From assembly GCF_009601705.1 (NCBI RefSeq), contig NZ_CP045687.1, positions 2,206,001 through 2,270,000 on the forward strand: DNA of 64,000 bases. Reading direction: 5' to 3'. Shown here piece after piece: positions 44,275-54,759 of the stretch (its first letter is position 1; the number at the start of each line of letters is the position of its first letter). The position numbers and the translations under genes are program-made. The notes below the pieces were generated by a model. The model saw only the letters and a list, made by a program, of their open reading frames with translations, was not told the origin of the DNA and made no database searches. Origin of the DNA: Sulfolobus sp. E5-1-F (lineage in GTDB: Archaea; Thermoproteota; Thermoprotei_A; Sulfolobales; Sulfolobaceae).

Positions 44275-44763
44275 ATGAAAACCTCTCTACTAGCATTAGC
44301 CCTAGTAGGAGCATTCGTAGCAGGCCTAGCGACTGCGGGTGTAGCGGGCTATGGACCACTAGCATATATATCATACCATATCATAGTAAGTCAGCAACAA
44401 GGTCAAGCACAAGTAATACCAGCATATATTAACTTAGGTAATTTAACCGCTGGGGAAAAGGGCAATACAACTGCAACTGCGGTAATTAACATTTCATCTA
44501 ATGGGACATATACAATAGATTTGCTCCATGCTGATAAGCTACAAAAAGTTTTCAGTAATTTCACAGTAGAACTGAAGATAAACAATAATACTATAACTCT
44601 CACACCAGAAAATGATAGTGCTAATGTGAAATTAGCAAGTGGATCCTATAATGTTTCAATACTAATAATATTCCAAGTATCCCAGCATCCTAAAGGAGAT
44701 TTAAACGTTAATCAAGAGCCACTACTTATTATTCATCCACAAGGAGATAATACCAATAGTTAA
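44275..44763 (+). CDS. Small secreted glycoprotein-like protein
   Basis: Not recognised. 162 residues with a classical signal peptide (MKTSLLALALVGAFVAGLAT, cleavage likely near residue 20-24). The mature part is beta-rich with five or so N-x-S/T sequons and a polar C-terminal tail lacking any membrane anchor, so it is probably released or bound to the envelope. A leaderless promoter precedes it. The YINLGNLTAGEKGNTTATAVI region resembles an immunoglobulin-like sandwich, a weak impression. Confidence 0.7.
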   Translation: MKTSLLALALVGAFVAGLATAGVAGYGPLAYISYHIIVSQQQGQAQVIPAYINLGNLTAGEKGNTTATAVINISSNGTYTIDLLHADKLQKVFSNFTVELKINNNTITLTPENDSANVKLASGSYNVSILIIFQVSQHPKGDLNVNQEPLLIIHPQGDNTNS

Positions 44764-44785: not shown

Positions 44786-45071
44786 TTATTTCTGTAATTC
44801 TTTTTCGGTATCTCTTTTCTTGACCGCTCTATCGTAGATAATCCAGTTCTTGTACCATTCTTCATTTTCCTTCCTTAAAAATCCTAGAATTATACTTGTC
44901 AATTCCTTTGCAGTCACCTTATCTTTTCCGTCCATGTGTATTTTTCCGACAGTCATGTAGGCTATTTTCCTAAGCTACGTTAATTGGTGCACCAGTTTTT
45001 AATACGCTGACTACAATCTTTTCCCATATAAGTTCCTCTTCAGATCCATCTCTTTTAACCACTTTTATCAT
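44786..45071 (-). pseudogene. ATP-cone domain protein interrupted by a 1-nt frameshift
   Basis: Reading the minus strand from the ATG at 45069-45071 gives a typical ATP-cone start (MIKVVKRDGSEEEL, then IWEKIVVSVLKTGAPINVA). After about 33 codons the frame hits TAG. Shifting by one base restores the second half without further stops: KIAYMTVGKIHMDGK, then ELTSIILGFLRKENEEWY, then the diagnostic YDRAVKKRD before TAA at 44786-44788. The domain is therefore complete but split by one extra base near 44969-44974. ATP-cone domains bind ATP/dATP in ribonucleotide reductase and NrdR; this stand-alone version of about 95 residues would be a nucleotide sensor. A true mutation, a sequencing error and programmed frameshifting are all possible. 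Confidence 0.7.
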
Positions 45072-45355
45072 AATTTTATAATACTCTTACTACAATTTAA
45101 AATTTTTTATTGATCAGTGAGTTAGTTATGTACGATAAAGATTAACTCATATATACATAAAAATTAGCTTCTACGAGAAAATTATGTTAGATGTAAACTA
45201 TCGTCTCTAAAAAGATTTCTAATGTACGTTATCAACTATCCCCCTAACTTAGTTATGTTCATAACTTCCAGTTTAAGTTAAGATATATTTTAGGAAAATC
45301 ACTTGATTTTTGCATGTTTCAAAACATTTTTATTCATAAAATGAGAGTTTTTATT

Positions 45356-45616
45356 ATGAGTATAGAGATTAATGAAAAGGGTGTTACAATAAAACTACCT
45401 ACTTTATCTACCTTTATTTCATTTTCCAGAGATCAAATAGAAAGGGTTGAAGAAGTGATACCTCCTGATGAGATATGTAGATTCGCAAGAAATAGGGGAG
45501 TTATATTTGCTGGAAGTACAATAGATGGAAAGATAATGTATTATAATGTAAGGAAAGGGGAGAAATGTTTACTATTAGTTCTTAAAGATGGAAGAAAGGT
45601 CTATGTAGGAACGTGA
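45356..45616 (+). CDS. Small PH-like domain protein (tentative)
   Basis: 86 residues from the ATG at 45356. The pattern (GVTIKLP, then ISFSRDQIERVEEV, then MYYNVRKGEKCLLLVLKDGRKVYVGT) is like a bacterial-type PH domain, where strands are followed by LKDGRKY near the end; this is inference from pattern only. The frame extends to 45314, but box A CATTTTTATTCAT is centred about 25 nt before 45356. The 283-bp gap upstream, back to the ATP-cone gene, holds the promoters of both and no other gene. Confidence 0.55.
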   Translation: MSIEINEKGVTIKLPTLSTFISFSRDQIERVEEVIPPDEICRFARNRGVIFAGSTIDGKIMYYNVRKGEKCLLLVLKDGRKVYVGT

Positions 45617-52030: not shown

Positions 52031-53020
52031 ATGATAAGAGCTGAGATTCCAACTTCATTATATATAACTTTTCAAGAGGTGATAAAGGATGTTGCAATTT
52101 ATGAAATGGATGATGTTGTTATAATATCGTTAGATGACTCTTTAATTGAAATAAGAAGATCCATTAGTTCTGGAATTGCCAATACCGCTTTCTATTATGG
52201 AGAGGAAAAGCTATGCGAAATCTTTGATTTAAATGAAGTCCATGACTACGTTAATCAAGGACTGTACAAGTTTAATGATTATAAGGAATCTGTAAGGTAT
52301 TGCTTATTTTCGATTTCAAAATTTATTAAGGAAAGATCTATTGAGGTCTCTTCTAAGAAATTTCTTTACGCTAACGCTGGGATATTCAGCAATATAAATA
52401 ATTTTATTGAAGGGAATTATCCAATATTGGGTAAGAATAAAATTGAGGATGAAGTTCAATATTTGATAAGAGCTAATGATAAGGTAATAGTGTTGAGCGT
52501 GATAGTATCTTCAATAGAAAATAAGAAGATTTACGCTTTTGCTAGTATCGAAGATGGGGATGATAGTAGACAAATAGCTGTCTTATTTAATGATAGAATA
52601 TATTATATTGATGAGTTAAAATTTGAGAACATTAATAACATCGAGACTGGGATAAGTAAGATAGTTGATTATATAATAAATTATGACGAGAGTAAGGAAG
52701 AAGAAATTGACAATTATTTGCTACTAACGATAAATAAAATAGGTAATCTCTCCGAAAGGTTTATTACTATAAGGAATATTATAGATGCTATAAGTGATAT
52801 CGCCTCACATGTTAATCTAAGGATAAATTTTGATCACTTTGACGGAGATATTGATCTGAAGTTGATCGAAAGTCAAAATATTATTAGTATAGGTAAGGTT
52901 AAAGATAATAAAATACTTACGATAAATGGTTATGAAACAATAAATGACGCATATAGTGCAATTAGAAGATTAATAGAAATTGGGATTGAGAAAATGAGGA
53001 AAGAATCTATTTATTATTGA
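52031..53020 (+). CDS. Hypothetical protein
   Basis: Not recognised. 329 residues, soluble, acidic, rich in Ile/Asn/Asp, with a repeated feel: two beta-rich parts separated by helical segments. Box A TTTTATATATA (52004-52014) puts the ATG at 52031 at leaderless distance. Its 3' end overlaps the convergent fragment of the IS-split gene by 14 nt. Confidence 0.6.
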   Translation: MIRAEIPTSLYITFQEVIKDVAIYEMDDVVIISLDDSLIEIRRSISSGIANTAFYYGEEKLCEIFDLNEVHDYVNQGLYKFNDYKESVRYCLFSISKFIKERSIEVSSKKFLYANAGIFSNINNFIEGNYPILGKNKIEDEVQYLIRANDKVIVLSVIVSSIENKKIYAFASIEDGDDSRQIAVLFNDRIYYIDELKFENINNIETGISKIVDYIINYDESKEEEIDNYLLLTINKIGNLSERFITIRNIIDAISDIASHVNLRINFDHFDGDIDLKLIESQNIISIGKVKDNKILTINGYETINDAYSAIRRLIEIGIEKMRKESIYY

Positions 53021-53158
53021 TGCAAATTCTCTTTCCTTTTCTCTCAATAAGTATATCACACTCATTGAATGAAATCCAAAATTTTACTAAATCTCCTTCC
53101 CTCGAGATAAAGGACGCTGACTCATCTTCAGTTAGTACTTTATAGATTTTATCGTAGT
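53007..53158 (-). pseudogene. 3' fragment of a gene split by the insertion sequence
   Basis: The minus-strand frame YDKIYKVLTEDESASF...RICINNK ends at a stop at 53007-53009 and continues, in frame, the protein whose 5' part lies at 54282-54759 on the other side of the IS. The continuous reading predicted is WLNNYDKIYKVL across the junction. It overlaps the convergent gene's 3' end by 14 nt, as an original gene end would. Function unknown. Confidence 0.55.
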
Positions 53159-54201
53159 CTGAATAGTTTCTTATAGTCAAAGAAGTATCCATAAACGTTT
53201 TTCAAGTACCTTGAGAGAGCCTTTACACCAAGGTGGGAACCGAGCTCATACTTCAAGATGTGGAGGAAGTTCACAACTAGGCCAACAAGCTTCATGTATC
53301 CGAGGATCTTGACTACGCTCTTGAACGAACTGCTCCTAAGGCCTAGGACCTTCAAATCCCTTATCACAGTTTCAACATCCCACCTATTCTCCCAAGTCGT
53401 TATTACCTCCTCAGAGGTCATGGTTAGGTCGGTCGTGAAGAAGTACCTCCTCCCGCAACCTTTATAATTATTAACTACAATTAATTTAATAGGAACGCCG
53501 AGGTACGTGACGGAGAACTCTCCCTCGGGGAACTCGGCGACCGGCACGGATCTACCTCCCTCGGTAACCCGCGCGCTCGCCTTAAGTTCCGAAACAACAC
53601 CGGGCAGAAGAGTTCTCCTGTTCACGTACCACGAATCGAACGCTATTGAACTAACGTTAAGCCTCCTCCTCACTTTCTCTATCAGCTCAATTGCGATTTC
53701 GATCTTCGTTCTGAACTGGACTGGCTTCCCTTCTTGTTTCAAGATATTCACGACTTTTTGTGGTAGGTAGATCTCGAGGTGGATCAAGTAGACCTCGTTG
53801 GTTTCCAAGTCCCTTATTGTGGCTACAAGGATTTGGTGTGCTGGGATGTAGGTTTTATCCTTCCTGGAGTAGAAGAATTGGGTCATGTGAGCTGAGACCC
53901 ACGCGGCTTCAGCGTAGTATTTCTCGTTTAGTGTGTCGTCTATTGAGAGCTGGACCTTGTGTTCCCCTACTAATTCCTTCACTACTTCGATTAGATCGAC
54001 CTTAGCGACCTCCTCTAACTTCCTCAAGGCGTATTCGTAGTCAATTCCAGCCGTGGTGCACTTGGCCCTCATTGATCCATCCTCGATCAGAGATGCACCC
54101 AGTAACTTCACTAGGGATTTACTGCCTAGCGTCTTCTTCACTTTCTCTAGGTACTTCCTTACCTTTGCAAATCCCCTGTTGAAGAGACTCGTTATTTTCA
54201 T
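53149..54201 (-). CDS. IS4-superfamily DDE transposase
   Basis: 350 residues. Catalytic triad: D88/D89 in LSIDDTL, D189 in IAFDSWYVNRR, and E277 in WENRWDVETVIRDLK, which fits the IS4 Y(2)R(3)E(6)K signature with W for Y. This is the fold of the ISH3/IS4 elements of Sulfolobales; I cannot name the exact element. The coding sequence is intact and GC-rich, with GC-rich codons unlike the AT-rich neighbours. Its stop codon lies about 8-10 nt beyond the inferred terminal repeat, so the transposase end may be supplied by flanking DNA, or the IS boundary lies slightly further out. Confidence 0.9.
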   Translation of the reverse strand: MKITSLFNRGFAKVRKYLEKVKKTLGSKSLVKLLGASLIEDGSMRAKCTTAGIDYEYALRKLEEVAKVDLIEVVKELVGEHKVQLSIDDTLNEKYYAEAAWVSAHMTQFFYSRKDKTYIPAHQILVATIRDLETNEVYLIHLEIYLPQKVVNILKQEGKPVQFRTKIEIAIELIEKVRRRLNVSSIAFDSWYVNRRTLLPGVVSELKASARVTEGGRSVPVAEFPEGEFSVTYLGVPIKLIVVNNYKGCGRRYFFTTDLTMTSEEVITTWENRWDVETVIRDLKVLGLRSSSFKSVVKILGYMKLVGLVVNFLHILKYELGSHLGVKALSRYLKNVYGYFFDYKKLFRLR

Positions 54202-54281
54202 TGTTTAGTCTTGGTATTATCATCCTAAAAAGTTTTTAAGGTATTTCAAATTGACGTCATTTTCAGGAAACTACTATTCAG
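53159..54281 (-). mobile_element. IS4-type insertion sequence, about 1.12 kb
   Basis: The element carries one transposase gene. Its ends are short imperfect inverted repeats: CTGAATAGTTTC at the left (53159-53170) and, on the minus strand at the right, CTGAATAGTAGTTTC (54281-54267), differing by a 3-bp insertion. No clean direct target duplication is visible, which may mean the ends are a few bases off or the copy is old or rearranged. Composition is clearly GC-richer than the host DNA. Confidence 0.75.
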
Positions 54282-54759
54282 TGTTTAACCATATTGCATA
54301 CCTTCCATCCAAAGTGTCCATATGAGATTTGAACTCCACAATCCCTATTTCATCTAGAACTCTTTTAGCTAAAATAAGTTTATCAATCCACGATTTTACG
54401 AAATTTACCTTATCCTTAGCTTCCTTTAGTCCAAAATATTTATAGTAAAATAGTGATGGTGTATATATTGCTTCCAATACGGAATTATCACCAATAAAAT
54501 ATATCTTTAGATTATATTTTGTAAGAAACGAGACTATTTCATTGATCTTACTCATTATCTCATCAAAGTTATCGGTCTCGTAAGCGAATCTATGTTTCAC
54601 TAATTCTGAAATTACATCGTCCACTTGCTCACAGTGGCCGTTCTGACATTTGGATAGTAACAATACATTATCCCTCGTATATTCGAACACATAATAAAAT
54701 TCTCCACCCTCACAAGGTATCAATTTGTCTTTATTTACGCAGTAAACGTATCTTGACAC
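54282..54759 (-). pseudogene. 5' part of a gene interrupted by the insertion sequence
   Basis: From GTG 54759 a frame of about 159 residues (MSRYVYCVNKDKLIPCEGGE...) runs to the IS and reads into a stop (TAG) inside the inferred terminal repeat at 54274-54276. Without the IS it would continue in frame into 53158-53007, giving a protein of about 210 residues. Two Cys-containing stretches near residues 53-62 (KCQNGHCEQ) could bind metal. No family recognised. A complete gene ending by chance at the IS edge is the alternative. Confidence 0.55.

Follow-up and report, generated by a model that had tools for sequence, protein, structure and literature searches.

The minus strand at positions 45071-44786 of the analysed stretch (64,000 nucleotides of the Sulfolobus sp. 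E5-1-F genome, hereafter the window) encodes a 94-aa ATP-cone protein whose reading frame is split by one extra T. We consider it probable, at roughly 70%, that this is a once-functional stand-alone ATP-cone gene that was inactivated very recently, when one base was inserted at codon 33-34. An initial annotation had proposed a stand-alone ATP-cone gene on this strand, broken by one extra base, and both the match of the joined protein to PF03477 and the alignment with orthologues bear this out (see below). Its figure of 95 codons holds when the stop codon is counted, the protein itself having 94 residues. From 45071 to 44970 the minus strand encodes MIKVVKRDGSEEELIWEKIVVSVLKTGAPINVA and then TAG (44972-44970) after 33 codons, in agreement with the earlier estimate of about 33. 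The +1 frame on the same strand encodes RKIAYMTVGKIHMDGKDKVTAKELTSIILGFLRKENEEWYKNWIIYDRAVKKRDTEKELQK, with 61 codons up to a TAA at 44788-44786. The orthologue alignment shows that GTAGCTTAGG contains one inserted T which every intact orthologue lacks; this narrows the earlier interval of 44969-44974 to 44972 or 44973; the exact position is ambiguous because the T lies in a two-T run. The features of the locus are as follows:

44970..45071, minus strand: ATP-cone gene, N-terminal part, 33 codons then TAG
44972..44973, minus strand: frameshift site, from the orthologue alignment
44786..44971, minus strand: ATP-cone gene, C-terminal part in the +1 frame, 61 codons and TAA
45085..45105, minus strand: A+T-rich TTTAAAT-type element, promoter-like, recognised by eye
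44275..44763, plus strand: syntenic neighbour of 162 aa with a signal-like N-terminus and no Pfam family, convergent with the ATP-cone gene
45314..45616, plus strand: syntenic neighbour of 100 aa with no Pfam family, divergent from the ATP-cone gene

The TTTAAAT-type element lies about 24-30 bases 5' of the ATG and is also present in the closest intact orthologue; as judged by this spacing, it is a putative promoter for leaderless archaeal transcription. In an AlphaFold2 model of the read-through protein (pLDDT 90, pTM 0.75), the N-terminal part holds strands 3-5 and 11-13, helix 16-24 and the beginning of helix 30-46, and the break sits inside the last of these. Translation from the ATG would stop at the TAG after 33 residues, within this long helix of the domain, so that neither piece would be expected to keep the nucleotide-binding fold. 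We infer that the extra base is real in the cell and that no full-length protein is made. The E5-1-F genome contains no second copy of the 94-aa gene.

With regard to the family, the joined 94 residues matched PF03477 with 28.8 bits (E 1.9e-6), above the curated cut-off of 25.8 bits, as the initial annotation had anticipated. The N-terminal half alone scored 17.1 bits, the C-terminal half alone gave no PF03477 match in the Pfam search, and the intact orthologues scored from 27.3 to 37.0 bits. Orthologues from other families of the order matched both halves in tandem at E values of about 1e-24, which far exceeds chance. The best fold matches of the read-through model were the ATP-cones of class I and class III ribonucleotide reductases, NrdB and NrdR, with Foldseek E values from 6.6e-5 to 1e-3 and, for the best rows, VIA Z scores of 11-13 over 81-94 residues. 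By profile and by predicted fold, the joined protein is thus a member of the ATP-cone family. Searches of the solved structures by single sequence or by profile gave no match, and the ATP-cone structures were reached by fold comparison only. An NCBIfam search returned only a sub-threshold match to an anaerobic reductase, and no relative was found in the viral contigs searched. Like free-standing members of PF03477, the joined protein and its orthologues exceed the cut-off and align with nearly the entire profile, and the KRDG motif, the EK motif and the basic C-terminal region of such members are also found in the joined protein. What sets it apart within PF03477 is that it is a 94-aa protein with no attached catalytic or DNA-binding domain, the E5-1-F copy being in addition frameshifted. 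The KR, EK and C-terminal K/R residues that are conserved in the orthologue alignment are compatible with putative binding of ATP or dATP.

Two known settings of this fold were compared with the joined protein. NrdR shares the ATP-cone fold (E. coli NrdR 9fvr, Foldseek E 2e-4, VIA Z 11-12) and differs in having a Zn-ribbon DNA-binding domain with CxxC motifs. The 94-aa protein begins with the ATP-cone, has no Zn-ribbon with its pair of CxxC motifs, and in the genus it contains no cysteine at all; its identification as NrdR was rejected because the Zn-ribbon is absent. The N-terminal ATP-cones of reductases likewise have the same fold, with Z of about 13 for P. aeruginosa class I (5im3) and L. 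blandensis NrdB (5olk), and are part of the enzyme, whereas the 94-aa ATP-cone is encoded alone. We also rejected the idea that the protein supplies an ATP-cone which a reductase lacks, since the E5-1-F reductase (838-840 aa, elsewhere in the genome) carries its own N-terminal ATP-cone, and a reductase with its own cone occurs in nearly every genome that has the stand-alone gene.

A search of 60 related genomes, E5-1-F included, revealed a full-length orthologue (E below 1e-11) in 18 others and a truncated copy in one more. The 18 comprise three species of the genus and 15 other genomes of the order, and the carriers span six families (f1, f3, f4, f5, f8 and f9). Identity is 95% in the nearest species and about 39-67% outside the genus. 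All intact orthologues read in a single frame with no shift needed, and coding is conserved across the whole region, as the proposal of the initial annotation required. The C-terminal KENEEWYxNW segment is near-invariant in the stand-alone family. Outside the genus no conserved operon context was found; the neighbours vary between genomes, which argues that the gene is a free-standing unit. In one genus of the order (g5) the stand-alone ATP-cone gene lies directly 3' of genes that, judged by eye, resemble TatA and TatC of the twin-arginine translocase, on the same strand (L042:138-2061 and L043:4706-6546), an arrangement seen in g5 only.

The E5-1-F copy was strongly constrained until very recently. 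Compared with its closest relative (G006) over the 94 codons, it shows 17 synonymous and five non-synonymous differences (dN 0.022, dS 0.394), about three of the non-synonymous changes being peculiar to the E5-1-F lineage. The gene has no second lesion, and relaxed evolution is almost absent. A Poisson bound, with the neutral rate taken from dS, an assumed branch dS of 0.15-0.25 and three to five changes setting the range, dates the loss to about the final 15-30% of the branch or to a still later time. After an older loss, more amino-acid changes should have accumulated, so either the break is recent or the record contains an error. An error of sequencing or assembly, by which the gene would be intact in the organism and one base added in the record, explains the missing second lesion and the near-absence of relaxed evolution equally well, and it also fits the strong constraint on a remainder free of other lesions and the retained promoter-like region. 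However, the site is a run of two Ts, not a long homopolymer, and the gene has been lost repeatedly in the genus anyway.

These other losses are independent damage, and the gene is repeatedly failing in this genus. Intact single-frame orthologues occupy the same locus, between the same neighbours, in G006, G005 and G004 (95%, 85% and 84% identity, respectively). In G001 codons 1-16 have been lost to an insertion with a Transposase_mut gene, a Mutator/IS256-type transposon, which adjoins codon 17. G002 retains a rearranged remnant, made up of a short 3' stretch and an inverted piece that covers roughly codons 5-36. In G003 only 56 bases separate the two flanking genes, and this gap holds no gene. 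The gene is therefore damaged or missing in four of the seven species of the genus, each time in a different way, and intact in three. Such repeated loss in one genus suggests that the ATP-cone protein is dispensable there.

The frequency of frameshifts also bears on the choice between mutation and error. In a scan of 337 kb of E5-1-F against the syntenic region of G006, 7 of 267 ORFs in E5-1-F appeared frameshifted, and in the reverse direction 4 of 273. The indels were varied, including gains and losses of one base, losses of two, a gain of four and genes with several lesions, which looks like ordinary pseudogene formation; for S. solfataricus, a review puts the share of predicted pseudogenes at 8.6% (PMC8211752). 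A count of 7/267 makes the ATP-cone frameshift an ordinary event. A high indel error rate of the assembly, as a general explanation, is unsupported by the scan, which leaves room for a single error. The variety of the indels, their low number and the similar count in G006 make a real mutation likelier than an error without proving it, and we hold an error in the record to be possible, if rather unlikely. Most likely, then, the E5-1-F gene belongs to a known domain family and was broken recently, and the frameshift itself is ordinary. Beyond the window, at genome coordinates 2270001-2543529 (L072-L085), six more ORFs look frameshifted relative to G006, among them a transporter-like one of 448 aa and an ABC ATPase-like one of 331 aa. 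Within the window, a gene of about 200 aa at 53007-54759 (minus strand), intact in G006, is interrupted by an ISC1217-type transposon (DDE_Tnp_2) whose transposase ORF is 53149-54201; its N-terminal 161 codons lie at 54759-54277 and its C-terminal 38 codons at 53132-53019.

The initial annotation had offered a recent null allele, a sequencing error and programmed frameshifting as options. The first is favoured and the second possible, whereas the third, in which +1 ribosomal frameshifting yields the full-length protein from the split gene, fits poorly. It has a precedent in the genus in fucA, the alpha-L-fucosidase gene of Saccharolobus solfataricus, whose translation involves a -1 shift at A-AAA-AAT, accompanied by a stem-loop, and which is, per the same review, the only cellular frameshifting case reported in archaea (PMC8211752). 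Like the ATP-cone gene, fucA belongs to Saccharolobus and is interrupted by a change of one base when compared with the intact, full-length orthologues of relatives, and the coding constraint on both halves of the ATP-cone gene, kept almost to the present, would suit recoding as well. The ATP-cone gene, in contrast, would need a +1 shift, and neither an A-AAA-AAT-type slippery heptamer nor a stimulatory structure is present: for the 73 bases starting at the stop codon, the predicted folding is no more stable than that of shuffled sequences (z -0.20, pseudoknots not covered). Since a TAG closes the +1 frame directly before CTT, only GTA or GCT could occupy the P site during a slip; moved by +1, these codons would face TAG or CTT, with which their tRNAs cannot re-pair well. 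Moreover, the intact orthologues need no shift, so that nothing shows a slip site to be conserved. Unshifted orthologues, slip codons that cannot re-pair and the lack of RNA structure 3' of the site together render programmed frameshifting very improbable, and that a full-length protein is still made by +1 recoding at GCU-UAG is just as doubtful. Were it true, a cellular gene of an archaeon would carry a recoding signal of a new kind. The C-terminal part has an internal ATG at 44956-44954 that could begin a 56-aa fragment, and this open frame might be made as a piece with its own function. Such a piece would lack the ATP-cone strands, the KRDG motif and any Pfam match, and no orthologue is split likewise; we give this idea next to no credence.

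Taken as a broken gene, the locus is of little importance, apart from its being missed by annotation and from the dispensability that repeated loss in the genus suggests. The intact family is of mild interest, since it is conserved and has apparently not been studied; our literature search found no paper pairing ATP-cone with stand-alone. In the intact relatives, the 94-aa protein probably acts as a free ATP/dATP sensor that alters its self-association, or binds a partner, via its C-terminal helices, in the manner of the cones of NrdR and ribonucleotide reductase. NrdR works by nucleotide-controlled self-association via its ATP-cones (PMC9110341), and together with the KENEEWYxNW segment, which would be suited to self- or partner-contact, this points to a free nucleotide sensor; by analogy, we infer that a nucleotide-responsive regulator is the most likely role. 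A short ATP-cone with no other domain, present in six families and with no fixed neighbours, may merit work and, should it sense dATP/ATP in solution, would be the simplest regulator of the ATP-cone type. Species with natural nulls beside species with intact copies offer a ready comparison. A second type of free ATP-cone protein, of 189 aa, is absent from the E5-1-F genome and occurs in some relatives, for example in G003, which has no 94-aa gene, and in G005, which has both. It consists of an N-terminal ATP-cone followed by about 100 residues with no Pfam family, and its genes lie at L024:1189-1758 (minus strand) and L030:1501-2070 (plus strand), with similar matches in G003, G007 and G027.
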